Shown here one piece after another: positions 6,239 to 52,600 of a stretch of DNA of 64,000 bases. Numbering within the stretch: position 1 is the first letter of the stretch; each line of letters begins with the position of its first letter. The notes under the pieces are model-generated. The model had not been told where the DNA came from. It did not search any database and saw only the letters and a program-made list of their open reading frames with translations. Source of the DNA: Cinnamomum chago (Eukaryota > Streptophyta > Magnoliopsida > Laurales > Lauraceae); the NCBI GenBank assembly GCA_038049695.1, contig CP142454.1, positions 17,864,501-17,928,500 of the forward strand, written 5' to 3'. The translations under genes were made by a program, and so were the position numbers.

Positions 6239-6504
6239 ATATTTCACCCCTAAGCCAGAGTTCTTTTTCATTGATGATTTAAGTGGGACAGTCTGCCGTA
6301 TAATTCTCCCTGCCAATGCTCCACTTCATCAAGTTGATGGTCTACCTTGTTCTTCAAAAGATGATGCCAAGAGGATTGCGTGTCTTAAGGCATGTAGTGA
6401 ATTGCATGCGCTGGGTTCTCTGACAGACTATCTTCTGCCAAGTCAAGATGATGGAAAAAAAGAAGGATCAGCAAAAAAGGCTTCCGAATCTGATGACCGT
6501 GAAG
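6239..6504 (+). CDS. DCL4: DCL4 exon: dicer dimerisation (DUF283) domain
   Basis: Begins after TTTGCAG at the third base of a codon, so at least one coding exon precedes it. It encodes [20 protein letters not shown] and then a core with [13 protein letters not shown] and [20 protein letters not shown]. This is the double-strand-binding-like dimerisation domain that follows the helicase in Dicers. It ends in a Lys/Ser/Asp-rich linker. Donor GAAG|GTTAGC; the next exon completes a GAT codon. Confidence 0.92.
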
Positions 6505-27500: not shown

Positions 27501-30500
27501 TGAAAAAGCAGAAAGCTGGTTATTCTGAGAGATGGGCATAACAAGAGGAAACAAGCGTCCACACTTAGGCCCCTTCGCGATCACCATCCCCGACACTGGA
27601 TCCTGCACAACACAACCAGAGCGAGAAAAGGAAACATCACAATTATCATCAACAAGTTGTCCAACAGACAGGAGATTCGTGGTGAGGTGTGGAGAGAGAA
27701 AGACATTTGTGAGAGGTAATGAATGAATGATATCACCAGTGGCTGTAATGGGAAGCTTTTGACCATCAGCAGTATGAACTTGCAAATTGCCATTGTATGG
27801 TTGCAGGTTAGTAAGATGAGAGGGGGAGGAGGTCATGTGATTGGAAGCTCCAGAATCAATAAACCATATGGAGGAGGAGGATTGGTGGTTACCTGAAATG
27901 CCCAGTGCAGAGAAGGCATTTATGATCATTTGTTGAATAAGCTCAGGGGTGATCTGAGGAGCAGTATTGGAGGCAGTAGGTGGTGAAGGCATGACCGGTG
28001 TTGAAGAACTGTCACTGGAAGTAGTAGCATCAGCAGCGTTGACATGATATGCCCGTGGAGTGCGATTCTGTGGTCGCCTTCTGCAATCACTAATGACGTG
28101 ACCATTGGATTTGCAGTAATTACAAAACTTGGTCTTACACTGTGAAGCATAGTGTCCATAACTCTTACAGCCAAAACATTGGATTTTGCTGAGATCCCGT
28201 GCAGGGGTTTGTCCTTTAGTAGTAGACGCAGGACTGTGGGAAACACCCGGGTTGTAACTGGCAATGGCAGGATATGCAACACTAGAAGAGGTTCCTGAGA
28301 ACTGTTGCTTCAAAGCATGCTGAGTAAGTTGACTCTGTTCCTCTCGCAAGAGTTCATGAAGGCACTCATTCAGGGATGGAGATGGAACTCGGCTCATCAG
28401 ATTAGAACGAATGATCTCATATTCAGATCTCAGTTTCATGAGAAACTGATCTCGATGAGAAGTTGCCTGTAATTGTTGTATTTCAGAAAGAGCTGCCTCA
28501 GAGACATGGAGGTATTTGATTTCATCATACTCTGCCCACAGATTAAGAAAACCCGTATAATAGTCCTGGATGGAAGAAGTGCCTTGGGAATATTGAGCAA
28601 TCTCCAGTTCAAGTTGGTATTGTCGGGCAGAATTCCCTTGGTGATACACTTGTTTCAGATATTCCCACATCTCCTTGGATGTCTTGTACGGTTTGAGGTT
28701 CAAGATATATTGTGGTTCCACAGAACCAAGAATCCATGTTTTGATCTTGGCATCTTTGGTATTCCAAGAAAGAATTTTTTTCTCATCTTCCTTAGGTCGT
28801 GGATCCCATCCTTCAACTAGGCCCCACATCTCCTTACCTTCAAGATATACTTGAAGTTGATAGGACCAGGAAGTATAATTTTTCCCATTAAATTTGATCA
28901 ATGTAATTTCATGTTTATCCATGTCAGTAATCTTATCAGATCCCTTAAGACAGCACACAGCAACAATAGAAGATAGCAGATGCAGTAACAGAGGAGTCCA
29001 AGTAGAACAGACCACAGAGTGCAAAAATTGCACAAAAAAACAGCCCAGGCGACCAAAAAAATTGGAGTTATAGCCTGACGTGGGTCCCACAGAAAGATCT
29101 GAATGGTGATCAGATCAGTAGCTAGAGACTAGGAGAGAATTTCCTTTCCAGCAGTCCAAGTTTTATCCAGATCGGATCTGAATCAAGGATTTTGTACGGT
29201 GGTGATAAAAACTATTTAAAGAAAGTGATTAACCACAAGAAGGAGCAAAACGCCTACCTCTGCTCACTGAAAATTGCTGAAAAAATCTCTAAAATAACCA
29301 GGAAGGATGGTCGACCAAGTATGGAGTGAAACTTGGGGACTGTGAGATGATCGTAGGTGGGCCACCAGTTGATCAGATGAAGAAACAGCCACGGGATGCC
29401 TCTGCAGAGCACAGATCCTTGATCTGAGTGAAGAAATCCTCAACCAATGTCCTCAATCACCAGAGGAAGCAGACGACCAGATTGGTTGCAATGGTTTGGC
29501 TTACTAATTTTGATCTAGGGTGGGCCACTTCTGATCACACGTTGATCTGACGACTTCCAATGCTTGGAAGATGAAGAAAAATACCCAGAGAGTCTCTCAG
29601 AGACTATGACAACTTCCAACACTTGGAAGATGGCTCAGACACATATAGCTCTGATACCATGTGAAAGGCAGCAATGGAAGAAGAGACAATATTCTCTGTG
29701 AATTCGATGATCCCTTTGAGGGTCTCATTCTTTGATTATATAGATACAAGTTGCTATAAGAGTTACAGGAATTGAGGCAACTAGCTAAATTACAATCTTT
29801 CTATTCTAATTCTATTCTAATTAGATCTCCTAATAAGGCAGGAAATAATATACATAGCTGTACAATCGATGCTTGTTTTGACCCACAAGTTGGGCCTTTT
29901 CTGCCATGGGTTGTGACCCACTGACCCATTGGACCATGACCCACTGACCCATTTGACATCTTTGTGGTCTTCTCCTAAACTTTGGGTTCTTAGTGGTCCA
30001 ACTCCACTCTACTAGACAATACAAGTATGATCCAGAGAGCCACAACTCCAGTCTTTCATGAGTGGACCAAACACATTCAGCATGATTGCCACTTCATCTG
30101 ACATGTCTCATTCGGAACTATGCATCTTCCTCATGTCTCCCAATTTCAATTGGCTGATCTTTTCACCTAAGCTATGACAAGATCTCATCATTATGCTCTA
30201 ACTGACAAATTGATGCTTCGACAATCTCTGCATGAATTTGAGGGGGAGTGTAGAAATAATGGGAACCACAGATAATCAAGTGGTCCCACAGTCCCACTCG
30301 TAATCACACGTGTAATGATAAGTGTGAATATAGGAGATGTGGATAGATTTGCTGTAATTAGATTAATTTCTGTATTGATTAGATTAGACCACAGAATGCC
30401 GGTAAGACAATTTTCTCCAAATTTATGTGTTCTTCATCGACTATGTCAATATATTTATGAAATTCTGCAAACAAATTCTGGATGTGATAGTTTTAACTTA

Positions 30501-33500
30501 TTGATTTTTACTTTTGTAATTTTGTACTTCTTTAAGCAGAGACTGGAATTTCTTGGAGATGCAGTACTGGATTACTTGATAACATCATATCTTTATTCAG
30601 TTTATCCAGATTTGAAGCCTGGCCAATTGACTGATTTGAGGTCAATAGCTGTAAACAATAATTCATTTGCGCATTTAGCAGTACATAAATCCTTCCATTC
30701 ATATCTTATCAGTGAATCTAATAACCTCTCTGAGGATATCAAGATGTTCGTGAATGCATCTTCTGGTGAAAAGTGCCTTTGTAAGGAGCTGAAATGTCCA
30801 AAGGTATTTCCCCTATTACTATCCTGGTTTGGGCTTGGTTGTGTATAAATATTGTCTTTCTTTTACTGATCAAGTGATTCTGGTTTTCTGCTTTATGAAA
30901 CTTAACCGTTTTCTTCCTCTGTTTTGGTGCAACTTAACAGTCTTCATTAGGGGAGTGCTTAAACTTAACTTCAACCACACTGTTTCCCTTCAATTCGGAT
31001 GCTTCATTAACATTAATTTAACATAGAGATAAACAATCACATAAGAAGATGCAACGAACTCAAAATGTTACATGGAGCTGCAACAGAGAATTTTGAGTAA
31101 ATATTGTGGCAACAAGATGGGAGCAAGGTTCTTAAATGTTTCTTGCTCCTAATGACACAAAAATGTTAGGTAGAGAACTCGACCTTATCTATTTATTCTC
31201 TATTTGTGCTAGGGATATGGAAAATTATGTAAATGAGGCACTGATGCCAGTTGATGTATGAAGAAATCACAGCGCTCTGATTCTAAAACAGATGTAACCA
31301 GGTCTGATTGGGCTTTCTCTAGAACATATGATGAACAGATATCTGAATCTGAATTGACCATAGTTTAGAATGTTGAGAATATTGAGAAACTGTTTCATAA
31401 TATTTATGTATCAGCTTGAGGGGGAGTGTTGAAAATATTGAGAAATAGTTGGATTTATTTGTAATTTGGGTCGTTGGGTTTATTTGTAATCTTGGGAGTA
31501 AGTTTTCTATATTAGGATTGAGTTATTTTAGGATAGAGTTGTGATGGGATAAAGATTAGATTTTCTAGTCTGGGTCTGATGAAGTTTCCTAGTTTGAGTA
31601 GATAGATATCTTTGGTTGTACTCTTATAAATAGCCAATGGCTATTCTTAATGAACTCTCCTAAGAGAATTTAGTTCAAATTATTCTGTCAAGTAGTCCCT
31701 CATTTCAACTTGGAGGATGAGTTACAATAAGAAAACAGTCCAAATACATCACAGATTATGTGGTCAGAAACTTTGATGCAACTATAACTGAGAATTAATC
31801 TAGGTGAATAGAATAAAAGTAGTGTTTTTTCAGAACAAGACATGCACCTTCCTGGGGTTTTGCATAGCAATCTCCAATAGGTAAGCTCCCTTTTAACCTT
31901 GCTATTTAGTTAACTGAAGGTTTCATGCATTATTATTTCTATGAGCATTAGCAAATGCAATAGAATCCAACAGTTCCCTTTTCACTATGACAAAAGCTAG
32001 AAGCCACACTATCCTTCATTGAATTGAGAATCCAATTCATTATTAACATAGTTTTTTTATTTCTAATCAGCATGTTTCGAATCATGCTTAGTAGGTTTCT
32101 TAATTCTTCTATTTACAGACATTCTTTATAACTTTAATATTTAACAGATTTACTAATTACCAACAAAAAAAAAAGATTTTCTGTACTCCAGTTACTTGAA
32201 TTTACAATGCTGGACAACAGGGAATTGCCCAGTGGAAACCCTTTATTTTCTTTAACTAATTTATTATGATGAAAATTGCCAATTTTTAGTGCTGAAAGAT
32301 AGTTAGGGCTTATTTGTAAATTTCTTTCCTTCATCTAGTGTGTAAATATTCAGTGAGCAGCTTGGAATAAACACCATCTGCTTCCTTTTGTAACTGCTTT
32401 CGTGGGAACTTTATCAGCATGATCTTCATTAGACTCAACCTTCGATGAATCTTTGATCTGTATGTGCAACTTGACCGGAGAAGGAGATAAAATTCTCATG
32501 TGCTCCATAGCATAAACTTACACTCAGCAGAACTCCTGATTTAGACTGTACCTTTGTATGATACACTGCGTATCCAAAGATGCTATAATGTTACAATGTA
32601 TTTCTAATGGCATGACTATCTTTTCTGATGATGAGGAACTTTATCAGCGTGATCTTCATTAGACTCGACCTTTGATGAATCTTTGATTTGTATGTGCAAC
32701 TTGACCGGCGAAGGAGATAAAATTCTCATGTTTTCCATAGCATAAACTTACACTCAACAGTCTGCACAACTCCTGATTTAGACTGTACCTTTGTATGATA
32801 CACTGTGTATCCAAAGATGCTAAAATGTTACATTGCAATTCTAATGGCATGACAGAATCTTTTTCTGATGGTTGAGTAGGTTTTTCACAAAAACCCTTCA
32901 GTGATGAACATTCATCCATAACTCGTTGATTGCTTGGATCCACACTACCAAGTAATGGTGGAGTACACATAGGGTTTTGCCCCTAACTTGAATGATCTCA
33001 TAAACTTATTGTAAATTAGAATTTAAAAATTAGACTTTTTATTTCAGACCTTAATCTAATTAGCTCTTATTAATTAGACTAGAGTTTCCAAATGAGCCCT
33101 TGACTTTTGTGATAAGTGACAACCTGATATTTGTAGATACTACACACCATCAGATCTAAATACCTCGATAGGTTTGCTGAATGGTCCCACTCCGCTTCCG
33201 CTATACAACTTTGATTTGTTAAAAAAAGTTTCTCCTTTTATTTGAACTTGGCTGGAAAACCCCAAATATGTTTTTTTTTTTTATAATTTTTTGTTTTAAA
33301 ATTAGGGTTGAGTTTTGGAGGTGAGTTTGTGTTTAAAAAGGCATGGATTCAATGAGAATTGGGAAAGCATTGGAGATTCATAGAGTTTGAGTTGGACATG
33401 TTTTGGACTTCGTTTTTAGGGTTTCTGGAACCAATATGGATGGTTTTGAAGGTCAACGAAATTGAAGGAAAAACAAGGGTGTGTTCGTGTAACGACCAGA

Positions 33501-35311
33501 GCCCGTTGTCCGTATGATATTTTCCGCTTTGGCTCATGGAATTCCAACCCAATCTGGCCGCATGGTTTTAAAAGGCTTTATGTGGAGTTAAGGTCAGGTC
33601 GCACATTATAAGCCTAGGGTCAGGACTTGGATATTTCCAATGTGGGACTTGAACAAAGCATCACGGTGCTAACTGAAGCACTCCACCCTTACCCCTGCAG
33701 ATTTCCCTTTCTTGACTCACAGGAACACTTGACCTGGTCTTGCTTAAAGGGATTATCCAGGCGGATTGGGGTCTCACACTCTCCCCCACCAAAAATATAG
33801 TCGTCCTCGGCTCTGGTTCCATTTTGTAACGACCCGAGCTTGCTGTCTACATGATATTGTCTGCTTTGGCTTGTTGGATTCCAACCTAATCTTGCCGCGC
33901 GGTTTTAAAAGGCCTCTTGTGGAGTTAAGGCCAGGTCGCACCTTATAAGCCTAGGGTCAAGACTTGGATATTTCTGATGTGGGGCTTGGACAAAGCCTCA
34001 GGGTGCTAACCAAAGCACTCCACCCTTATCCCTGTGGATTCCCCTTTCTTGGCTCACAGGGTCTTGCCTCAAGGGATTACCCAGGCGGATTAGGGTCGCA
34101 CAGTTTGGTTGGGCTCCTTAAAAGCCAAATGTGCTTTTCCTAAAGTAGCTTGTCATAAGCTACTTCTTTAAACCAACCTTTAAGAAAAATAAAGTTTGGT
34201 TAGCATGTACTTTTTAACAACAAAAGTATCCAAGAATGTTTGGGCAGGACATCATAAAAATTAGCTTTTAGCTTATAATAACCGTATATTATAGCACATA
34301 TATAAACAACAAGAAGAAATCTAGACTTAAAGTTCAAAAGAAAAATATGAACATTGTATTTTTCCAAATCCTTGTGTTTTCTAAAAATTCAACCATGGAG
34401 AACAAACAAAAAAAACCCAAGACCAAATTTTTGGGTCCCACATACAACTTTTTTTTTTTGCTAACGGAGGGTTCCTAATCCTTTGGACTGAACTATTCCC
34501 TCCGGGCCCAGAGAGAAGCCGGGTAAAACCCCTGTGACCCCTAGGTGGTAACACAAGTGGACCCAACCTTCGGGTCCTGAAGAGGAGGGAACCGGGAGTC
34601 GATACCAGGACCTCTAGCTCCGGAAGAGAGAGGAACCGTGGTCCTAACCACTCGGCCAACCCCTTGGGGTCCCACATACAACTTAACTATTCAAAACATG
34701 AGCACAACCACATGTTAGAAAAGGCAAAAAAATTAAAAAATCTCGAGATTGGCATTACCATATCTATTCCTCATGAAAATAATAGTTGAAATGGAAGTTT
34801 TACTATGACTAACTGGAACAAAAAAAAAAAACCCAGAACCAATTATAGTGTCCTCCCATGTAATTATGCATCCATGAAATGTTTTGCAATTGCGTTAACT
34901 AAAAGAAAGGATGAGCGATTGTTATTGACTTATTGTCCCATAACCTTAACAGGCACCAAGAAGCAGTGCAATTCGCCATGAGAATAAGACCTGCATTATG
35001 ATGCTATTGGTAGATCATGAACAAAGGTATACCCCAACCCAAGTCTGGATATTGCCATGGTGTCTCTAATTTGAAGATCAGGATTTATGGGAACCCTAAA
35101 GGTCATGGTCATGGACCAGATATGAAATTATAAAACCGAATTCTCCACCTCTTTCTTTCAACTGGGTTGTTTCGATTAGTTTCTAGGGTTAAGATTTGGA
35201 TTTTATGATTATCAAGAGTTAAAGATCGAAAGAAAATAAGGAGAGAAATGAAAGGGGGAGGTTTCAAAGGGGTCTCTAGCAAAAGAAAGAGGAAGCTGCT
35301 TGCATGGTTCT

Positions 35312-35374
<63 letters not shown>

Positions 35375-38300
35375 CATGAACGTCCGACTTCCCGCAAAAG
35401 AGAGAAGTTGTTTCTCTATGTGAAGCGGGTGCCGGTTGCTTTTCTTAAAAGTGGGCTTTTAACTTTTGCTTATTTAAAAGTGCTTTTAAAAGTATGATAA
35501 CCAAACAAATTTTTTTGGGTTTTAGGCTTTTTAAAAGTTAAAAGCTCGAAAAGAATTTTTAATGAGTCCAACCAAACGCGACAGTGAGATTATCGCATAA
35601 GCATAGGGGTCAAGACCATGGTTGACTTCATCTTAAGATTGTTACTGCACCATGGCTCTGATTCCATGTAGAAATTTGAGAAACTACATTTAGTTAAAAG
35701 TTGTGGTTGCCGTCGCAGTCGACCCCAAAAAGCGATATGACACGGCGTTGCATCGTGGTTCATGTCATCGTTGTCTGTTGCAGTGCTAAATTTTGTTTTA
35801 CCCCCAAAAAATGAAAAATATAAAAAAAAAATACAGAATATTGTAAAATGCTAGAAAACGATGTTTTTCTTCCATTAGTGTAAACACTGAAAAGAAAAAT
35901 GCCATTCCCTCTAAGTTATAACATTCTGTATCCCTGTCTTATTTGAAATCAATCAAAATCTTATGACTGAGTTGAGTTTTCGTGATAGAGTGGTTGGGGG
36001 AGGTCAAGTAGCCTCTTACCTTGTGGACCTGTGGTTGCATTTGGAAAGAAGGAAATGGATGAGAAGAAAGTGAAATAGGGTTTTAACCGAACAGTGGGCT
36101 ATCAGATGATATTTTCAAATATCGGCCAATAGATCAGTCAAGACCGATATTTTCAAAAGATTGACCGATATATTGGTCCGGACCAAAATTTTGAAAAATA
36201 TCGGCCAAGATCGACCGGTATTTTGGCGATGTTTTGTATTCTGTGATCTTGGTACCAATATTTGCAAAATACTGTCATGGTTGGGAGGTTGATGTGAACC
36301 CTAACCTTTGTATTTTGAACCATGGGTAAAACCCACTGCATCTTCATTATGAGAAAATGCCCCAAATAAACTAGAGAAGAATGGAGAAGAGGATAGAAAA
36401 TAAAGTTTCAAATGTATTCAAAATTCAAACCTATTCAAACTTAAAATTCGAACTTATTTCCTCTCTCTTTCCTGTTCTAATATCTTTCCTAATATCCCGA
36501 GCACTAATCACATAATTATAGGAAACTTAATCACAACATGACTCGAGCCTAACACAAGTTCAATCTAATCCTAATCCAAGACAAAATTATCCACTTTTTT
36601 TTAGCAATGACAGAAAACCTCTTCTCTTCATAGTTTCTCATAATAAAAAATTAACCCATAGTTATTGTAAATTAACAAATAAGTCCTAACTATCTCTAAC
36701 ATGTAGAAGATCAATCAGCTTCCCAATCAAAACTATGGATTGTTCATCCAGCTAACTTAAGTCACAATTTAGGGATGAATACTTGTCCACAGTGTCAAAT
36801 ACAAGATGGCTCAGGCCCACTTGGGCCCAATATGGTGGCATCCAATCTCGTTGGATTTGGTCAAATATTGCACAGTTTTCTTTCTTCCTTAATTTGATTG
36901 TAATTAGATTTAGTCTAATACTCTTTCTTTAATTAGATTGTAAATAGATTAGCTGATTTGTAGAGCTGATTTGTAGCCTTGGATAAGAGCTGATTTGTAG
37001 CGTTTGATAAGACATCTGTATTCTATATAATGGGAGAGAATCTCCAATGAAGACACAAAATTATAGCTCAAAATCTCTTTTACATGCTACGATTGTTATG
37101 GTATCAGAGCATCTCTTGTAAAGGCTACCAGTGTTCATCTTTTGAAGAGCCACAAGGACTCTATCAGAGAGAAATCCTTCTCTCTATCGTGCAGCAAACA
37201 GATCAAGGATCTGTCCTCAGAAATTTGGTTCCAGGAAAGCCAGATCTTTAACATCTTGAAATCTGATCATTGTGGCCCACCTGTGATCAGCCCTACTGCT
37301 CTTGGGAGACACAATCTTGTGTTTCAGAAGCACACAGATCAAGGATCTGTAATCTTGGGATCAACCAGATCAGGGATCTGTGATTTTTGTAAGCAGCAGG
37401 ACTTCTGTCACGATATGATCAACAGTGGCCCACCTGTGATCATCATGGGATATTCAGGAAACTCTACAGCAATGGTCGACCATCTCTTCTGATATTTTTG
37501 GTGATTTTTTCAGCATTTTTTCGAGATCAGAGGTAGGCTTTTGGACCCCACTTGTGATTTTCCAGTTTTATCAAATTGTTTTGATCACAGTCGTACAAAA
37601 TCTTGGATCGTGGATGGATTTTAGTGAAACTTGTATTGCTGGAAAGACATTTTGATACTGCTTACATCTAGTTGATTAGATTCTCCTTCTGATCAAACAG
37701 TGGGCCCCACGCAGGGATTCTATAGCATTTTTTTTTTGTCGTCTGGACCATTTTTCTGTGAATTTTTTTCACGGACTCCTGTCTGTTGTTCTGATCTCTT
37801 GGATTTGCCTTTTGTTACTACTTCTCTTTGTTTTGGTTCAAAATGGAGAAGTCTGAGGTAAACTTGATTCGATTTGATGGTAAAAACTATCCAGCATGGG
37901 CTTTTCAATTTCAATTATATCTTGAGGCCAAAGAATTATGGGGATTTGTTTCTGGTTCTGATCCAAAGCCTACAGAAGATGATAAAAAGATTTCTACTTG
38001 GAATACAAAAGATGCAAAAATTAAAACATGGATTCTTGGGGCTGTGGAACCTCATCTGATTCTAAATCTCAAACCCTATACAACCTCCAAGGAGATGTGG
38101 GGTTACTTGCAGACAGTTTATCATCAAGATAATTCTGCACGACAATTTCAACTTGAGTGTGAAATTGCATAATACAGTCAAGGCACCTTGACCATTCAGG
38201 ACTACTATTCTAGTTTCCGCAATCTGTGGAGTGAATATGATGGGATTAAATATGCTTCTGTGCCGAACAATATTCTTAAAACTATACAAGAACTTCAAGC

Positions 38301-41300
38301 CTCAAGTCACAAGGACCAGTTTTTGATGAAATTGCGTCCCGAGTATGAGACTGTAACATCATCTCTGCTGAGCCGAAGCCCATTACCATCCTTGGATGTT
38401 TGTTTGAATGAGTTGTTGTGAGAAGAACAACGCATTCGCACAAAAGCCCATCTGGAACAAAAGCACACTGAAACCTATCCTGTTGCATACTCTGCTAAAG
38501 GGAACACTCAGTCTCTTCAGATCTCACAGTCTTCTCCGACTCCTCAGACTCGTGATATGAGCAAAGTCCAATGCTACTCTTGCAAAAAATATGGACACCT
38601 TGCAACTCAATGCAACCAGAAGTTCTGTAATTACTGCAAGAAGAAGGGACATATCATTACTGAATGTCGCCGCCGTCCACAAACTCGGACTCCCAATGCT
38701 TATGCTGCCCAGGTAGACTATTTTCCTGCGGATGCTGCATCCACATCTGTGCCTGCACAGCCTAGTTCGTCTTCCCCTGCTCTCACTCCTGAATTGGTTC
38801 AACAAATGATCGTCAATGCTTTTTCTGCACTTGGCCTCACAGGTAAATCTAAAACTCCTTCTTCCATTTGGTATCTTGATTCCGGAGCATCAAATCACCT
38901 GACTCATTCCAGTGCACAACTCTCTAGCTTGACAAAATATACTGGCAATACTCATGTTCAAACAGCCGATGGCGGACATCTTCCTATCACTGCCATTGGA
39001 AATATTTCCAGTATCTTGCCCTTAAAGAATGTTTATCACTGTCCCAATTTAATTTCAAACCTTCTTTCCATTGGACAACTTGTTGAAAATAACAACCGTA
39101 GCATGTAACAGAGATTTTGATCTATAATTTTGTGTGTCTTTCATTGGAGATTCTCTCCCATTATATAGAATACAGATGCCTTATCCAAGGCTACAAATCA
39201 GCTAATCTATTTACAATCTAATTAAAGAAAGAGTATTAGACTAAATCTAATTACAATCAAATTAAGGAAGGAAAGAAATCTGTGCAATATTTGACCAAAT
39301 CCAACGAGATTGGATGTCACCATATTGGGCCCAAGTGGGTCTGAGCCATCTTGTATTTGACACCCCCCCTCAAATTGATGTTGGGGAATCCACAAGCATC
39401 AATTTGCTAACCAAGAACTGATGGCGAGGTCGCGGAAGTCCCTTTGTGAGTATATCGGCAGTTTGAAGGTCAGAAGAGATGTGAGGAAGGCTAATGACAT
39501 CACGCTTGTATTCATCGCGGATAAAATGGCAATCAATCTTGATGTGTTTAGTGCGTTCGTGGAAAACTGGATTGGCAGTAATACGAATTGCACTAGTATT
39601 GTCTGCATAGAGAGGAGTGGCACTATCAGCAGGAAATCCGAGAGCAGAAAGCAACCCGCGAAGCCAGAGAATTTCTGAACAAGCAGCAGACATGGCACGA
39701 TACTCAGCTTCAGTGGAAGATTTTGAGACCTTATCTTGTTTCTTACATTTCCATGAAATCAAGCTATCTCCCAGATACATGCACCATCCAGTGGTAGAGC
39801 GACGAGTATCCGGACAACTGGCCCAATCAGCATCTGAGTAGGCTTTTGAGTGTCAGGGAATTGTTGGCCGGATAGAATAATCCACGGGTTGGTGTCCGAA
39901 TTATGTATTTAATAATACGGCGGACTGCAGCCAAACGAAGATGTCGAGGATCAGTCATGAACTGACTGACTAAATTGACTGCATAAGAGATGTCAGGACG
40001 AGTTATCGTCAAGTAGATCAAGCTGCCAACGAGGCGACGATAAAGTGTAGGATCAGAGAGAGGATCCCCACTGTCTTGCTGAAGTTTCACATTGACTTCG
40101 ACTGGAGTATCGACGGGAGCAGATCCTTGAAGTCCAGCCATGTCAATTAATTCAAGAGCATATTTATGTTGATGAAGTACAATGCCTTTTGCAGATTGAT
40201 GAACTTCAAGACCTAGAAAATAGTGCAGAGGACCAAGATCTTTCATGTGGAAAGATTCATGAAGAGAGGCCTGAAGTTGGTGAATCATATCTGCATCGGT
40301 ACCTGTAATGATGATGTCATCCACATAAACAAGAAGAATAGTAATCCCCGTAGAAGTATGATGAAGAAACATGGATGGATCATATGGACTAGGATGAAAC
40401 CCCAAGTGCTGAAGAGCATTGTGGAATTTTTCAAACCATGCCCTGGGGGCTTGTTTAAGGCCATAAAGAGAACGCCGTAGTTTGGCAACAGCACCGGTGA
40501 TGATAGATGATACTCCCTGAGGAAGGCGCATATAGACATCTTCTTTAAGATCGCCGTGAAGAAAAGCGTTCTTGACATCCATCTGGTAGAGAGGCCATGA
40601 TTGGGATGCTGCGATGGCAAGAATAGTCCGAACAGTGGTCATCTTTGCTACAAGAGCAAAAGTCTCCTCATAATCAATACCATATTCCTGCCGATTACCC
40701 ATAGCGACAAGACGGGCCTTGTACCTATCCAGAGTTCCATTAGGTTAAGCTTGATAGAATATATCCATTTGCAACCAATTGGCTTAACTGAAGGAGGACA
40801 CGGAACCACATCCCATGTATGATTTTGCGCAAGAGCATCCAATTCATCCTGCATAGCTTTGTTCCAACACTCATGCTGCACAGCCTGAGAGTAAGAGTTC
40901 GGAATCGATGTAGAAGACATGGTGGCCATCAAGGAAGTGTGGGTAAACCCATAACGAGTTGGAGGTACTGAAATCCGAGATGATCGACGCAAGGGAGGGT
41001 CTCCAGTTGGACCAGATGTAGTTGGGCGATCGGTAGGGGGACTATCTGTGTTTGCTGCATTACTCCGCCTATGATACACGAATTTAGGATCAAATTTCAC
41101 AAATGGAGTTTTGTCCGAAAAACCAGGTAAGGAAACAACAGATGGGGACTCGACAGACTCAAGATATTGTTGGAAAAAATATTGATTTAAAAAAAAAACA
41201 TTACGGGAGGTACGAATGCGCCGTATTTGAGGATCATAACACAGAAACCCCTTTTGGTGACTAGCATATCCTAGAAAAGCGCATTTAGCAGATTGGGCAG

Positions 41301-44300
41301 TAAGTTTGTTACGCTCAGAAGGAGGTAAATGTACAAAACACACCGATCCAAAAACATGCAGAGCATCATAAGATGGTGTAGTTTTGTATAATCGAGAAAA
41401 AGGACTCTCATTTTCTAAAGAAAAGGAAGGTAATCGATTTATCAGGTGGACAGCAGTGCTAAGAGCTTCTATCCAAAACCGTGGAGGAACAGAGGATTCA
41501 ATAAGAAGAGAGCGAGTAACATCAAGGAGATGTCTATTCTTCCTTTCAGCGACCCCATTTTGCTGAGGGGTATAAGGACAAGATTTTTGAGAAAGTATTC
41601 CTTTTTGTTGTAAAAAAGTTTGAAACTCTGTAGACACATATTCACCTCCCGAATCAGAACGTAAAATTTTAATGCAAGTGGAAAATTGATTCTCAACATA
41701 TGCTAAAAACATTTTGAAAACATTAAAGACCTCAGCTTTAGAATGTAAAAAATAGACCCATGTAAATCTACTATAATCATCAATGAATGTCACAAAATAT
41801 TTATAATGAGCATGAGACAAATGAGGAGCAATACCCCAAACATCACTATGAACTAAATCAAAACAATGAATACTAGTAGAAGTGGAGACAGGAAAAGGAA
41901 GAGTTTTACTTTTTCCCATCTTACATGTAGCACAATCAAAAGAAACAAACTTAGAAAATCCTATTGAGTTTAACAATCCAGAATTAACCATGTGAGACAT
42001 GGTTTTAAAATTAGGATGTCCAAGCCTACTATGCCACAATTGACAATTATTTTGAGCTGAAAAGCAAAAATCATTTTCTGAATTCTTCCCAATCGGAGTA
42101 GATAGATCAAGAGAAAATAAGCGTCCATTTTTAGGCCCCCTCGCGATCTCCCTCCCTGACATCTGGTCCTGCACAACACAACCAGAGGAAGAAAAGGAAA
42201 CATTATAGTTGTTTTCAACAAGTTGTCCAACGGAAAGAAGGTTTGAAATTAAATTGGGACAATGATAAACATTCTTTAAGGGCAAGATACTGGAAATATT
42301 TCCAATGGCAGTGATAGGAAGATGTCCGCCATCGGCTGTTTGAACATGAGCATTGCCAGTATATTTTGTCAAACTAGAGAGTTGTGCACTGGAATGAGTC
42401 AGGTGATTTGATGCTCCGGAATCAAGATACCAAATGGAAGAAGGAGTTTTTTATTTACCTGTGAGGCCAAGTGCAGAAAAAGCATTGATGATCATTTGTT
42501 GGACCAATTCGGGAGTGAGAGCAGGGGAAGACGAACCAGGCTGTGCAGGCACAGATGTGGATGCAGCGTCGGCAGGAAAATAGTCTACCTGGGCAGCATA
42601 AGCATTGGGAGTCCGAGTTTGTGGACGGCGGCGACATTCAGTAATGATATGTCCCTTCTTCTTGCAGTAATTACAGAACTTCTGGTTGCATTGAGTTGCA
42701 AGGTGTCCATATTTTTTGCAAGAGTAGCATTGGACTTTGCTCATATCACGAGTCTGAGGAGTCGGAGAAGACTGTGAGATCTGAAGAGACTGAGTGTTTC
42801 CTTTAGCAGAGTATGCAACAGGATAGGTTTCAGTGTGCTTTTGTTCCAGATGGGCTTTTGTGCGAAGGCGTTGTTCTTCTTGCAACAACTCATTCAAACA
42901 AACATCCAAAGAAGGTAATGGACTCCGGCTCAGCAGAGATGATGTAACAGTCTCATATTCAGGACGCAATTTCATCAAAAACTGGTCCCTATGACTTGAG
43001 GCTTGAAGATCTTGAATAGTTTTAAGAACATTGTTCGGAACAGAGGCATATTTAATCCCATCGTATTCACCCCACAAATTGCGGAACCCAGAATAGTAGT
43101 CCTGAATGGACAAGGTGCCTTGACTGTATTCTGCAATTTCACACTCAAGTTGAAATTGTCGTGCAGAATTGTCTTGATGATACACTGTTTGCAAGTAACC
43201 CCACATCTCCTTGGAGGTTGTATAAGGTTTGAGGTTTAGAATTAGATGAGGGTCCACAGCCCCAAGGATCCATGTTTTTATTTTTGCATCTTTGGTGTTC
43301 CAAGTAGATATCTTTTTATCATCCTCTGTAGGCTTTGGGTCAGAACCAGAAACAAGTCCCCATAATTCCTTGGCCTCAAGATATAATTGGAATTGAAAAG
43401 CCCATGCAGGATAGTTTTTACCATTAAATTGAATCAATTTCACTTCTGACTTCTCCATTTAAACAGCACTAGAACCAGAAGGTGAGAATCTAAATCACAG
43501 ATAGGATAGAAAATGCACACAGTACACAGAGGTGTCCAAAAGCAACAGCGCAAAAACAACTCAATCCAAAAAGAGTCCAGACGACCAGAATTTCTTGGCT
43601 GGATCCCTTCGTGGGGTCCACAAGGAGATCGGATGGAAGATCAGATGAGGGACTGGAGACAAGAATAAAAATCCCTTTCCAACTGTGAAGGTTGGAACAA
43701 AATCCAGGTAGAATCCAAAAATTGGTGCGGCTGTGATGAAAAGTATTTCAAAAAGTGAACTAATCACAAGATGGATCAGAAAGCTTACCTCTGATCTAAG
43801 AAAAAATCAGAAAAAATCTCCAAAAAGACAAGGATCAATGGTCGACCAAGGCTGTAGAGTCTTTGACGATTTGGTGATGATCGCAGGTGGGTCCCCCGAT
43901 GAGATGCTCCAAGATCCTAACGAGAACAGTTCCCAGATCCTAAATCAGTTGTCTGATTTCTCTTGCTGAGTCAAATAACATCCACAAGCTTCTGAAGTAA
44001 CTGTTGATCAAGATAGAAGGATGACTGTGATGAACTTGGGCTGATCTGTGGTGGGCCACAGAGATCAGACTACAAGATGTTGCAGATCTGTGCTATTTCT
44101 GGAACCAGGACAGATCCTTGATCTGTTTGCTACACGAGAGAGAAGAATTTCTCTCTGAAAGATTTCTTGAGGTTTTTCAAAAGATGAAAAACTGATGTGC
44201 TCTGATACCATAACAACCGTAGCATGTAACAGAGATTTTGATCTATAATTTTGTGTGTCTTTCATTGGAGATTCTCTCCCATTATATAGAATACAGATGC

Positions 44301-47300
44301 GTTATCCAAGGCTACAAATCAGGCTACAAATCAGCTCTACATATCAGCTAATCTATTTACAATCTAATTAAAGAAAGAGTATTAGACTAAATCTAATTAC
44401 AATCAAATTAAGGAAGGAAAGAAATCTGTGCAATATTTGACCAAATCCAACGAGATTGGATGTCACCATATTGGGCCCAAGTGGGCCTGAGCCATCTTGT
44501 ATTTGACAGAAAACAACTATAATGTTTCCTTTTCTTCCTCTGGTTGTGTTGTGCAGGACCAGATGTCAGGGAGAGAGATCGCGAGGGGGCCTAAAAATGG
44601 ACGCTTGTTTTCTCTTGATCTATCTACTCCTATTGGGAATAATTCAGCAAATGATTTTTGTTTTTCAGCTCAAAATAATTGTCAATTGTGGCATAGTAGG
44701 CTTGGACATCCTAATTTTAAAACCATGTCACACATGGTTAATTCTGGATTGTTAAACTCAATAGGATTTTCTAAGTTTGTTTCCTTTGATTGTGCTACAT
44801 GTAAGATGGGAAAAAGTAAAACTCTTCATTTTTCTGTCTCCACTTCTACTAGCATTCATTGTTTTGATTTAGTTCATAGTGATGTTTGGGGTATTGCTCC
44901 TCATTTGTCTCATACTCATTATAAATATTTTGTGACATTCATTGATGATTATAGTAGATTTACATGGGTCTATTTTTTGCATTCTAAAGCTGAGGTCTTA
45001 AATGTTTTCAAAATGTTTTTAGCATATGTTGAGAATCAATTTTCCACTTGCATTAAAATTTTACGTTCTGATTCGGGAGGTGAATGTGTCTACAGAGTTT
45101 CAAACTTTTTTACAACAAAAAGGAATACTTTCTCAAAAATCTTGTCCTTATACCCCTCAGCAAAATGGGGTTGCTGAAAGGAAGAATAGACATCTCCTGG
45201 ATGTTACTCGCTCTCTTCTTATTGAATCCTCTGTTCCTACACGGTTTTGGACAGAAGCTATTAGCACTGTTGTCCACCTGATAAATCGATTACCTTCCTT
45301 CTCTTTAGAAAATGAGAGTCCTTTTTCTCGATTATAGAAAACTACACCGTCTTATGATGATCTGCATGTTTTTGGATTGGTGTGTTTTGTACATTTACAT
45401 CCTTCTTAGCGTAACAAACTTACTGCCCAATCTGCTAAATGCGCATTTCTAGGATATGCTAGTCACCAAAAGGGGTTTCTGTGTCATGATCCTCAAATAC
45501 GGTGCATCCGTACCTCCCGTAATGTTTTTTTTTTAAATCAAAATTTTTTCCAACAATATCTTGAGTCTGTCGAGTCCCCATCTGTTGTTTCCTTACCTGG
45601 CTTTTCGGACAAAACTCCATTTGTTAAATTTGATCCTAAATTTGTGTATCATAGGCGGAGTAATGCAGCAAACACAGATAGTCCCCCTAATGATCGCCCA
45701 ACTACATCTGGTCCGACTGGAGACCCTCCCTTGCGTCGATCATCTCGGATTTCAGTACCTCTAACTCGTTATGGGTTTACCCACACTTCCTTGATGGCCA
45801 CCATGTCTTCTACATCTATTCCGAACTCTTACTCTCAGGCTGTGCGGCATGAGTGTTGGAACAAAGCTATGCAGGATGAATTGGATGCTCTTGCGCAAAA
45901 TCATACATGGGATGTGGTTCCGTGTCCTCCTTTAGTTAAGCCAATTGGTTGCAAATGGATATATTCTATCAAGCTTAAACCTGATGGAACTCTGGATAGG
46001 TACAAGGCCCGTCTTGTCGCTATGGGTAATCGGCAGGAATATGGTATTGATTATGAGGAGACTTTTGCTCCTGTAGCAAAGATGACAACTGTTCGGACTA
46101 TTCTTGCCATTGCAGCATCCCAATCCTGGCCTCTCTACCAGATGGATGTCAAGAACGCATTTCTTCATGGCGATCTCAAAGAAGATGTCTATATGCGCCT
46201 TCCTCAGGGAGTATCATCTATCATCACCGGTGTTGTTGCCAAACTACGACGTACTCTTTATGGCCTCAAACAAGCCCCCGGGGCATGGTTTGAAAAATTC
46301 CACAATGCTCTTCAGCACTTGGGGTTTCATCCTAGTCCATATGATCCATCCATGTTTCTTCATCATACTTCTACGGGGATAACTATTCTTCTTGTTTATG
46401 TGGATGACATCATCATTACAGGTACCGATGCAGATATGATTCACCAACTTCAGGCCTCTCTTCATGAATCTTTCCACATGAAAGATCTTGGTCCTCTGAA
46501 CTATTTTCTAGGCCTTGAAGTTCATCAATCTGCAAAAGGCATTGTACTTCATCAACATAAATATGCTCTTGAATTAATTGAAATGGCTGGACTTCAAGGA
46601 TCTGCTCCCGTCGATACTCTAGTCGAAGTCAATGTTAAACTTCAGTAAGACAGTGGGGATCCTCTCTCTGATCCTACACTTTATCGTCGCCTCGTTGGCA
46701 GCTTGATCTACTTGACGATAACTCGTCCTGACATTTCTTATGCAGTCAATTTAGTCAGTCAATTCATGACTGATCCTCGACATCTTCATTTGGCTGCAGT
46801 CCGACGTATTATTAAATACCTAATTCGGACACCAACCCGTGGATTATTCTATCCGGCCAACAATTCCCTGACACTCAAAGCATACTCAGATGCTGATTGG
46901 GCCGGTTGTCCGGATACTCGTCGCTCTACCACAGGATGGTGCATGTATCTGGGAGATAGTTTGATTTCGTGGAAATGTAAGAAACAAGATAAGGTCTCAA
47001 AATCTTCCACCGAAGCTGAGTATCGTGCCATGTTTGCTGCTTGTTCAGAAATTCTCTGGCTTCGCGGGTTGCTTTCTGATCTCGGATTTCCTGCTGATAG
47101 TGCCACTCCTCTCTATGCAGACAATACTAGTGCAATTCGTATTACTGCCAATCCAATTTTCCACGAATGCACTAAACACATCGAGATTGATTGCCATTTT
47201 ATCCGCGATGAATACAAGTGTGATGTCATTAGCCTTCCTCACATCTCTTCTGATCTTCAAACTGGCGATATCCTCACAAAGGAACTTCCGCGACCTCGCC

Positions 47301-49589
47301 ATCAGTTCTTGGTTAGCAAATTGATGCTTGTGGATTCCCCAGCATCAATTTGAGGGGGGGTGTCAAATACAAGATGGCTCAGGCCCACTTGGGCCCAATA
47401 TGGTGGCATCCAATCTCGTTGGATTCGGTCAAATATTGCACAGTTTTCTTTCTTCCTTAATTTGATTGTAATTAGATTTAGTCTAATACTCTTTCTTTAA
47501 TTAGATTGTAAATAGATTAGCTGATTTGTAGAGCTGATTTGTAGCCTTTGATAAGGCATCTGTATTCTATATAATGGGAGAGAATCTCCAATGAAGACAC
47601 AAAATTATAGCTCAAAATCTCTTTTACATGCTACGATTGTTACACAACACTTCAAATTCTGGCTTTTTGGACACCACAACCCCACCAAGAGTTGAGAAAT
47701 TTAAAAGAAACTTAGGCATACTCACCTTGAATTGCTGTACTATAGAATTGATTGGCCCTACGAACTCTGAATTGGCCCTAAGTGTTGAAGTTCGTATACC
47801 TATGGTTTACATCAGCCTTAGGGTTGGGTAAATCCCACCATCAAGTTGAAGTGGTTTTCGCTTCTTGGACGAGACTTCTAGTCCTTAGGATCCTCTGATA
47901 CCAAGTTGGAAGCTTGTCTTACTTAAAAATTAGGTTTAAAGCCAAGAAGATGAAGGAAGAAGCAAGAAAGAAGTTACTGTTCTGAGGAAGATCGAGAGAA
48001 ATTTGAATATAGTTGCTGGATATCCAACAGGTTTGGATTGTCAATCCAAGCCCAATCTGGGGAGGCCCATTTAGGCCCAGTCATTGTGTTGTAGAATTAG
48101 TCAAAGGATAAGATAATACTTAGTTGGTTAGCTACAATGTAGGATCTGAGAGGGCATTCAGCCCCCATATATGTAACAGTTAGCTACAGTGTAGGATCTG
48201 AGAGGGCATTCAGTCCCTATATATGTAACACACAGTCGTCCCTAAAGGGGGTACTGTATTTCACCATTTTCGTGTATTATGCTTCAAATATACTACACTG
48301 ACATGGTATCAGAGCCAAATCGATCAACTGTGATCATCTCATAAGTCATCTTCCAAGCCTTGGAAGCCAATCTGTGATCATCTTCTTCAGCCGGATCCTT
48401 TCCGATCATCCCTGATCATCTCAGATCAGGCGTGGCCCACCTGTGATCATCAGCATCACCATCTCAGCGGCTTCTTCCCTCTTGGTCGCCTGAATATTCT
48501 CCTGTTTATGAAGATTTTTCCAACATTTATTGCTCATCAGAGGTAGGTCTTCTACCTATTTTTGTGAAACTTCAGTTTTTTACACTTGTTTCCATCTGGG
48601 CCGTCCAAAATCCTAGATCTGGATTCAGCCCCCATATATGTAACAGTTAGCTACAGTGTAGGATCTGAGAGGGCATTCAGCCCCTATATATGTAACACAC
48701 AGTCGTCCCTAAAGGGGGTACTGTATTTCACCATTTTCGTGTATTATGCTTCAAATATACTACACTGACATGGATGACCAGCCATATAATATCATTTTTA
48801 GTAGTCAATATTTGAAAAATTACAAAATCCCCTTAACATAATTGTTTTCTGTAATTACAAATCAGTCCCCGTACTCTGAAAATTAGAAATTAATCACTAC
48901 AAGTCTTTTTACACGATGTTAGCATGGTATTCCCTTTGGAATTTTCGCAAGTTAGTGCATACTTAATAGGACGATGGGTCTAAAGATCTTTTGTGATCTA
49001 TTTCCTGAGCCAAATACCTGAATATGACAATGTGAGCAAAATTGTAGTGGTCTAATTGAAAAGGAGAATGGATGGAAGTGGATGATAAACCTTTTTCTTT
49101 TAAAATATCTACTTCAACATTTCCAACTTCATGTAGTTCATAAGGTGATGTATAACTATTGCTAGAAGACTTGGTACTCTTCCTAATATGATGGGATATT
49201 ATTGGGCCAAAATCTAAATAACTTTCTTTATGCGTTCTAAAGTTACAACTGTTATCCTTTTTGCCCTTTGCATCTTCAATTTCTTATACAACTTATTTGA
49301 TTTCTTACAAATTGCCCTATTGGATGTACTTTAAAATTGGATATCTTTTTACCCTAAGTGATTCTCCTTCAAGTTTGGGGCAGGGCAGAAATTCCCTATT
49401 GTTAGATGATACATTTCCCACTTTTGTTGGACTGAAACAGGAGTGAGATATTAACTTCCAGCACCTTCTCTTATCTCCATTCCATCTTGAACAATAGTCT
49501 GCTTCCCTTCTGCCTGGGGAAGTGAGCACACCTTAATGAATCCCTACAGTTATTATATTTGAAATGAAAAGAAGCAAATAGTTTTTTTT

Positions 49590-49620
<31 letters not shown>

Positions 49621-52600
49621 TTTCCAAATGGTAACTGTAAAATTATATTAAGAAGAAAAAGAGTGTACAACAACAAACAAAACCAAAAAATAATGGAAAG
49701 ACAAGCACGGGTATAATAGCGTTATACCCAACGCCAACAAATCCTACGAAGTAATAAAAGCTGCTAACCTTAATGCTAACCCTTTGCTTAGGTAAAGCAT
49801 CCGTTATATCATTGCACTCCAACTAACATGACTGAACACCACCTAAAGGGATGATGCAACAAGTTCTTCATACTGGTTTGTAATTGCATCCTGTTTTATT
49901 GATTCAGGTACTTGGTGACTTGGTTGAGTCTTGTGCTGCTGCTATACTTTTAGACACTAGATTCAACTTGGAGCTTGCTTGGAGAATAATGTTTGCCTTC
50001 TTGGATCCAATCATGAATTTTTCTAGCTCTTGCTTACAGCTAAGTTCTATTAGGGAACTGCAAGAACTTTGTCAAACCCATAATTTTGAGTTGAGTTTCC
50101 CAGATTCAGAGAAACAAAAAGGAGGCTTCTTGGTTGAAGCAATAGTAGATGCTAATGATGGCTGCACAAGGAGCATTGTCAAAGGTTGCGCAATCAACCC
50201 TAGTAGAAAGGTTGCTAAAAGAATGGCTGCACAAGAAGCATTGTCAAAATTGAAGGTAAGCCATTGGAGCCCGCTTTTATAATAATCTACCATTGTCTAT
50301 ATTCTCTTAAAACCAACTTTTCTTTCCTTTACATCCAGATACTATCGAATTTATGGATTGGAGCTATTTATATTTTAAAAAGGTATGAAATTTTAGGGCA
50401 ATTTGAGAGGAGGAATTTAGGGCTGCAAACTGGATGGTCATTACAGTAGGGTTGGGTGACCACCCTTGTTTATTTATATTATTTAAGCTTTTTCATAATT
50501 ACAAAAAAGGTAGTTTTAACAATTTTAGTTATTTACAAACGGTCCCCATTTTTTTTCTATTTACATAAAAGTTGACTTTGTTTCCTAGCGGATATAAAGC
50601 TTGTTGCAATTTCTTATGAGACTCAAGGTCCCTCGCTTTTAGTGTTTAAATATCGGCTGATACTAGTTTGTATCATCGTGACGATATTGTGCTGGGATAT
50701 CGGTATCGGTATTGTCATGGTCCAAATCGCCAAAATCTCGGTTAAATATTGGCCGTAATGGCCAATATTTTAAAAATACCGGTCATATCGGTTTAATCGT
50801 CGATACGACCCAAACTTAAAAAAAAAAAAGAGGAAGAGAGGAGAAAAGGGAAAAAACATAACAATAACAACATGCAATTTTAAAAGAAAGAGTTGAAAAA
50901 ACATATAGATGGATCACCATCCCCCAAAAAAAAAGGAGTCATACACCTGGTTGCCCCCAGCAGCCACCCCTTTCTCCTGTTCTTCCTCTCCTCTTTTTCT
51001 TTTTTTTTATTCCTCTCTTTTCCTCTTTCCCTCTTTCTTTTCCCTATCCCCGCTCCCGTTTCTTTCTGGTGGAAATGGAAAGAGCAAACCCTTTTGAGTG
51101 TTTTCCTCTCTCCAATCTCCATTTGATTCCCACAGTATGAGTCTTTCACACATATTGTGGTCCACATTTTTAAAAACTAAACTAAATAAATGCAGCCTCT
51201 TAAATGGTCTCACAAATGACAAATCGCAATAAATTTTAGAATTTAAAAATCTAAACCAGTAAATGCCATCTTATTATCTAAACTTATATTAAATGCCCCC
51301 TTTTTAGTTTCCCCACTCAAAATAAATGGCCCTTTTAAATTGTCCCTTAACAAATATTAATTAAATAAGAGTTCCTGCCTTGACACTCACTTTAAAAATT
51401 TGCTCAGATTTTTTTTTTTTTTTTTATAACGGTAAATTTTATTCAAAGAAGAAAGGAGAAACAAAGAAAAGAACAACGAACAAGATTAAAAATAAACAGA
51501 AACAAATAAACTAAACATCAAACTAAATGTGAATCCGAAAAAAAATTGCTCAGATTTCAGCCATGGAATTTAACAATTCCCAACATTTGATGATGGCCAC
51601 TTCATCACTCCTGCTTCTTCAAACTCAATGAATAGTAGTTGTTTGTAAGTTGCAACTCTTAGTAAGTTTTACCAAAAAAAAAAACCACTTAGTAAGACTC
51701 TTATGTTAATAAGACTTTTGACTTCATGGTACTGCCAAATGCTGCTATAGGTCATCGTGGAGTAAGTCAGTCTGGAAAATATGATACTCAAAATCATTTT
51801 GATTGTATATTTGGGATACAGCGTTTGTCAGGGGTGAATGCCGCTAAATGCTAATGGATCAATCTTGAAATATGGCATATTGGTGCTTATGTGATTGATG
51901 CTGATAGGGCACTTTTTTTTTCATCTACACATTTATGGAATTGGGCGTTGTTCCTGCTCTCTTGCCTCCTTGTAACTTTTTTGGTCTTCACTATTACTAT
52001 TAGTACTACTATGTTAGCCAAGGTTTTTTTTTTTTTTCCATAACTGGTATATCAAATGCAGTTATTGGTAGTTGGTCATGGAACAATATATTCTAGAAAC
52101 TAAGATGGTTGACATATGGTTGGTTGCTTGAAAGTGAAACATGTTAGGGGTTTTAAAACTCGGCCCAGTCCAAGTTGTACCAGACCTGGTCCTTACCGAG
52201 GCACTTGGACTTGGCTGATTTTTGGTGTCTTGACCGAGTCAGACTGTTGCAGTTAAGATGCAACTCGGCCAAATAGTAACAAACTTGTGGTCACAAATTC
52301 AGTGACCAATTCCCTTTTTTTTTTTTTTTTTGAATGGTAAAAAGGAACTTATTAGAGAATCTTAACAGTACAAAAGCGGCATACCGGAAAGAATGCCCCA
52401 AAAGAAGAAAACAACAACAAGAAACACCCAATGCAGCAATTAAGAGGGAAAGACATAATCTTTGGCGGTGGACTCCTTCCTTGGCTCAAGCGTCCGCCAC
52501 CTCATTAGCTGACTGCCTAATATGAGAAAGATTAGATTCCTCACAAGATCCTTCACTTTGTCTACCACATCTAGCAATCTCTTAGGGATGTAACACACCT

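Follow-up and report, generated by a model that had tools for sequence, protein, structure and literature searches.

Nested Copia elements in a DCL4 intron

The 64,000-nucleotide window of Cinnamomum chago analysed here (contig CP142454.1; all positions are those of this stretch) carries a Dicer-like gene whose RNase IIIb region is interrupted by a 19,104-bp intron, and this intron holds two long terminal repeat (LTR) retrotransposons, Copia A and Copia B, nested in opposite orientation. Judged by matches to solved structures, the host gene is plant DCL4. The exon at 21070-21537 matches Dicer-like protein 4 (9kby) with 167.5 bits, compared with 62 for DCL1 and 54.2 for DCL3, and the joined exons flanking the intron match 9kby_A with 178.6 bits, compared with 139.2 and 125.8, respectively; the comparison covered DCL1 and DCL3, plant DCL2 not being among the matches and so lying outside it. 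Both the DCL4 assignment of the initial annotation and its bounds for the intron (here GT...AG) hold, the best-matching solved protein aligning straight through the junction 30803/49908 (subject letters CPKVLGNLVQS). The GDLVES portion of RNase IIIb lies on the 3' side of the intron, and both portions presumably bear catalytic acidic residues. Reading through into the intron adds 14 residues before a stop. Pfam places Dicer_dimer (6252-6506) and dsrm above cut-off in the DCL4 exons; the RNase III exon reaches 23.8 bits, under the cut-off of 35, and RNase III is clear from the structure matches. Helicase exons were not seen within the window. A change in intron size would not be unusual for DCL4, because two Salvia DCL4 copies differ widely in this respect (PMC4429486, in extract). 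In an Rfam scan of the whole window no microRNA (miRNA) family reached its gathering score, and in the intron none matched at E values up to 0.5. The two matches that were listed there up to E 0.5 belong to one Listeria family with a cut-off of 100 bits; at 24.7 and 23.8 bits they were rejected as chance.

Both elements have the paired LTRs and 5-bp target duplications of Copia LTR retrotransposons (Table 1). The duplication around B, GAAAA, is perfect, and that around A (CACAG/CACAA) matches at 4 of 5 positions. Copia A on the plus strand is split by Copia B on the minus strand as first described, and the perfect GAAAA on both sides of B speaks against an error at the nested junctions, which had been raised as an objection. 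In B, Pfam finds Retrotran_gag_2, rve and RVT_2 in element order, spread over three separate frames. In A, three pieces were scanned, giving a zinc knuckle and RVT_2, with no family in 46652-47350; the piece 44491-45177, the expected place of the integrase, was not among them and aligns with B at about 97%. The coding region of B is broken into several frames and that of A is split by B, and as read neither element looks intact. The motif TGGTATCAGAGC that follows the 5' LTR of A resembles what we take to be a primer site. The 5' LTR exceeds its 3' partner by 24-25 nt in A as well as in B, owing to a short tandem unit (GCTGATTTGTA-like) that is present in different numbers of copies. An odd lengthening common to both 5' LTRs was rejected, since the copy-number changes of this unit differ between A and B in the alignment. 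The leaders (37294-37840 in A and 43461-44037 in B) are largely different despite gag/pol pieces that match at 95-97%, which would fit a swap of the leader in one lineage through template switching.

Table 1. Positions, strand and supporting evidence of the DCL4 exons, the intron, the two Copia elements and the inverted-repeat arms
Feature	Positions	Strand	Evidence
DCL4 exon, first half of RNase IIIb (ends CPK)	30540..30803	+	One continuous alignment with next exon to 9kby_A; donor GT at 30804
DCL4 intron, 19,104 bp, phase 0	30804..49907	+	GT donor at 30804; AG acceptor ending at 49907
DCL4 exon, second half of RNase IIIb (VLGDLVES...) and dsRNA-binding motif	49908..50256	+	Alignment to 9kby_A; Pfam
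Copia A, interrupted by B; flanks CACAG / CACAA (4/5 match)	36793..47642	+	LTRs, flanks; Pfam copia domains on 2 of 3 A pieces scanned
Copia A 5' LTR, 306 bp, then TGGTATCAGAGC	36793..37098	+	LTR alignment
Copia A 5' leader, poor match to B leader (about 180 nt at 76%)	37294..37840	+	BLAST
Copia A 3' LTR, 282 bp; G-rich tract just before	47361..47642	+	LTR alignment
Copia B, within A, opposite orientation	39090..44508	-	LTRs, target duplication, Pfam
Copia B 5' LTR, 298 bp	44211..44508	-	LTR alignment
Copia B 3' LTR, 273 bp	39090..39362	-	LTR alignment
GAAAA target duplication, left side of B	39085..39089	+	
GAAAA target duplication, right side of B	44509..44513	+	
Arm pair 1 core, left, 1,249 nt	37841..39089	+	95.1% complementary to 42212-43460
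Arm pair 1 core, right	42212..43460	+	BLAST self-match and alignment
Arm pair 2, left	39090..42216	+	97.0% complementary (ungapped) to 44509-47642
Arm pair 2, right	44509..47642	+	BLAST self-match and alignment

Inverted-repeat arms and their pairing

The two elements supply four arms in the 5' to 3' order A1, B2, B1, A2, an order that always results when a reversed relative is inserted at one point of an element. Pair 2 (B2-A2) comprises 3,027 identities, 93 mismatches and 21 gap columns (97.0% ungapped); BLAST gives it 96.4% identity and 5155 bits, and an independent repeat finder also lists its arms, in pieces. The 3.1-kb complementarity first reported for 39090-42215 and 44514-47642 is thereby confirmed. 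The 2.3-kb pairing reported for 36793-39089 and 42216-44508 stands for its core, which holds 61 mismatches and no gaps, and was overstated for the rest: over its whole length (36793-39089 with 42217-44508), pair 1 (A1-B1) comprises 1,978 identities, 187 mismatches and 259 gap columns (91.4% ungapped), and within the A leader BLAST matches just the one short stretch. Arm identity does not fall below about 85%, the level under which the hairpin idea had been held to fail, in either pair 2 or the pair 1 core. At the scale of 21 nt, the description of A and B as near-identical amounts to 1,476 perfectly paired positions among the 3,107 of pair 2, about half of which hold a mismatch; pair 1 has 587 perfect 21-mers. 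A chance origin of the arms was rejected: mononucleotide shuffling of the intron, repeated 20 times, produced no inverted self-match above 34.4 bits, against the 5,155 bits observed.

Helices A1-B1 and B2-A2 cross and have no bases in common, so the two pairings, originally described as mutually exclusive, are not strictly so. Their calculated energies are -5,707 kcal/mol for pair 2, -3,244 for pair 1 and -2,224 for the pair 1 core, each computed for the named helix alone with isolated pairs dropped, no free folding and crossing helices uncombined. The loops measure 2.3 and 3.1 kb. The position of the elements within the gene suggests that all arms would lie in one RNA, and they end 2,265 bases upstream of the intron end, which would leave room for folding ahead of splicing. 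In a nascent transcript the weaker pair 1 could form first, because both of its arms have been synthesized by 44508, when the right arm of pair 2 is still to come; the stronger pair 2 could then arise as a crossing helix or by exchange. Of the 10,830 21-nt positions across 36793-47642, 6,217 are unique within the window on a count of both strands and would be usable for mapping, and the sequence variants between A and B make a hairpin origin directly testable in small-RNA libraries. The expectation of reads from both strands needs revision here: a hairpin in a single plus-strand transcript would give uniquely mapping reads on the plus strand only.

A probable ordinary nested insertion and alternative readings

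We consider it probable that one element recently inserted into the other in the ordinary way, with the inverted repeat a matter of geometry, and that the insertion is tolerated, silenced and spliced out with no dedicated effect on DCL4. Two related Copia elements would have jumped successively into the intron, B landing inside A in reverse, and this nested reversed insertion alone would have produced the inverted repeat. The intron would most likely be transcribed and then spliced out normally, while the elements would be kept silent as other intronic transposons are, by 24-nt small interfering RNAs (siRNAs) and methylation; any read-through hairpin RNA would arise incidentally and be diced by DCL2, DCL3 and DCL4 redundantly. 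The nested insertion is argued for by the target duplications, perfect at B and 4/5 at A, and by the LTR pairs, which differ by two substitutions in A and two in B, each with an additional 24- or 25-nt change in tandem-repeat length. The differing 5' leaders of A and B are what two separate family members would be expected to show. The intron is also not alone in carrying a transposon, because another Copia (24483-29958, minus strand) lies between earlier DCL4 exons. Long heterochromatic introns associated with transposable elements have been described in rice genes (PMC7145194, in extract).

With only two LTR substitutions per element, both insertions look young. The LTRs of A differ at 2 of 282 sites (0.7%), corresponding to about 0.3 million years at an assumed rate of 1.3e-8 per site per year, an estimate with wide error since the true rate for the plant is uncertain. 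Between the elements, the LTRs differ by 8 mismatches (44211-44508 versus 47361-47642), exceeding the two within each. The coding regions differ at 145 of 4,082 compared sites, spread over codon positions 1/2/3 as 34/23/88, which overall is a pattern of constraint; the third-position excess peaks in gag (12/4/41, n=57). Because of this excess (88/145), much of the 3-5% divergence between A and B probably predates the insertions and would stem from active source lineages. Their history fits two separate recent arrivals, with no hint in the sequence of hairpin upkeep via selection or conversion.

Several points weigh against an ordinary insertion of this kind. The 3.1-kb pair 2 is very stable in calculation (-5,707 kcal/mol), and since neither pair comes closer than 2.2 kb to the acceptor, folding can precede splicing; long near-perfect arms in the sense strand are expected to yield some double-stranded RNA (dsRNA) if transcribed. 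The last coding segment, 39373-39852, lacks the third-position excess (6/4/7, n=17). Moreover, the silence of the elements and the normal splicing of the intron are what we infer, and the absence of functional signs is weak evidence. An siRNA output from the A/B hairpin is possible. The anatomy would allow the dsRNA and siRNA source proposed in the initial annotation, with long arms paired at about 97% in the sense strand upstream of the acceptor at 49907, and from the anatomy we cannot tell whether it is one.

One form of that proposal, in which the A/B hairpin forms in the DCL4 pre-mRNA or in its excised lariat and becomes a real source of 21-24-nt siRNAs silencing the Copia family in trans, with the DCL4 level unaffected, strikes us as unlikely. 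It draws on arms that are 95-97% identical over 1.25 and 3.1 kb, on the many perfectly paired 21-mers in both pairs (1,476 in pair 2 and 587 in pair 1), and on published inverted repeats: an extract of PMC4687873 describes long inverted repeats as substrates of DCL2, DCL3 and DCL4 for siRNA production and the IR71 precursor, visible on an RNA blot in dcl234 and not in the wild type, as thought to be processed by these three enzymes, and DCL4 is said to prefer dsRNA longer than 100 nt (PMC6502814, in extract). However, loops of 2.3 and 3.1 kb would have to be bridged, all 11 kb would be needed in one RNA, and about half of the 21-nt positions of pair 2 contain a mismatch.

A self-limiting loop, in which dicing of the nascent hairpin by DCL4 or another Dicer comes before transcription of the acceptor and truncates the mRNA in RNase IIIb, so that DCL4 limits its own mRNA, is very improbable. 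It would exploit an intron that interrupts RNase IIIb and in which read-through meets a stop after 14 residues. Introns of DCL1 carry the miR838 (Arabidopsis) and miR1047 (moss) hairpins, for which feedback has been proposed, and a role of DCL4 in termination at FCA is reported (PMC4429486 and PMC3814327, respectively, both in extract). Against this, the young-looking insertions leave little time for selection, no Rfam small-RNA family stands above cut-off in the intron, and the mRNA would be unchanged if the excised lariat is what gets cut; even for the DCL1 loops physiological evidence is lacking, according to an extract of PMC4429486. Feedback on DCL4 would have its precedents in the DCL1 intron hairpins, in the DCL4-linked termination at FCA and in the methylated intron of IBM1. 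We give equally little credence to the full scenario in which the nested Copia pair would make the DCL4 pre-mRNA a DCL4 substrate, co-transcriptional dicing both truncating the mRNA in RNase IIIb and releasing anti-Copia siRNAs, so that the transposons would bring along their own silencing trigger and at the same time restrain the enzyme. Small RNAs or truncated transcripts, if found, would make the locus a natural example of a Dicer gene brought by a transposon under the control of its own product.

Just as remote is the idea that the transposon-filled intron, if methylated, serves as a sensor of the silencing state via IBM2/EDM2-type proteins and sets the balance of full-length and short DCL4 transcripts, as intron 7 does in IBM1. 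A long transposon-bearing intron within a catalytic domain of a silencing gene would suit such a role, and IBM1, whose sensor sequence is itself not conserved, offers a precedent; on the other side, most Arabidopsis genes with intronic mCHG retain full-length transcripts on methylation loss (PMC11265718, in extract). An assembly artefact, with a repeat misjoined or inverted within the intron, is hardly credible: near-identical repeats are a known assembly hazard, but B has its perfect 5-bp duplication, both elements keep the order LTR-internal-LTR, and LTRs are closer within an element (2 mismatches) than between A and B (8 mismatches). Under the ordinary nested insertion that we favour, the presence of the Copia pair in a DCL4 intron may be regarded as an attractive coincidence, and the case illustrates how a nested opposite insertion can build inverted repeats of kilobase length in a silencing gene with no function required.

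Related systems and other repeats in the window

As an ordinary nested Copia pair, with LTRs, 5-bp duplications, copia gag and reverse transcriptase, and B inside A, the locus is unusual only in its host gene and in the opposite direction of the elements. It shares with the endogenous inverted-repeat siRNA loci IR71 and IR2039 of Arabidopsis the long near-perfect inverted repeat that defines them and makes an expected Dicer substrate; in contrast to these, it lies in the intron of a Dicer gene, originates from nested retrotransposons, has kilobase loops and crossing arms, and is known from sequence alone. What it has in common with miR838 and miR1047 is that an intron of a Dicer-like gene may form a hairpin, the cutting of which could truncate the mRNA. 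However, the gene is DCL4 rather than DCL1, the arms are transposable elements of 1.2-3.1 kb with kilobase loops rather than a miRNA foldback, and no miRNA family matched, so it is not of the miR838 type, a miRNA-producing foldback in a DCL1 intron. Sirtrons, for which Chen 2011 is reportedly the source, are a further likeness. They are siRNAs from intronic hairpins that methylate the host gene (PMC5545994, in extract), and the present intron likewise has a foldback that could feed siRNAs. The IBM1 intron 7 sensor and other heterochromatic introns bearing transposable elements resemble it as long repeat-bearing introns, for IBM1 in a silencing gene, the DCL4 case again being known only from its letters. 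Isoforms of DCL4 are reportedly the subject of Pumplin 2016. A hairpin in a DCL4 intron was not described among the literature matches listed, which covered titles and abstract openings, with subscription papers and preprints outside the scope.

Further repeats lie elsewhere in the window. The third Copia, at 24483-29958, has LTRs that are 99.7% identical, TCTTT on both sides and two long frames divided by one stop. It is 72-77% alike to A and B over aligned pieces, so that it and A make up a weak inverted pair with an exon between them. A 5S-rRNA-like match at 8647-8756 (46.8 bits) lies within 8528-8860, and the neighbouring sequence is 78% related, in inverted orientation, to 33488-34060 in the 19-kb intron, which contains a pair of 236-bp direct repeats; we take the two to resemble a terminal-repeat element of the 5S-bearing Cassandra type. 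On the minus strand, 118-2202 holds three successive open frames of retroelement-like appearance, upstream of the DCL4 exons. Two sets of short direct repeats, each 99% identical, are probably recent local duplications: 48156-48306 and 48623-48773, spaced by 467 bp, and 57282-57400 and 57493-57611, spaced by 211 bp.

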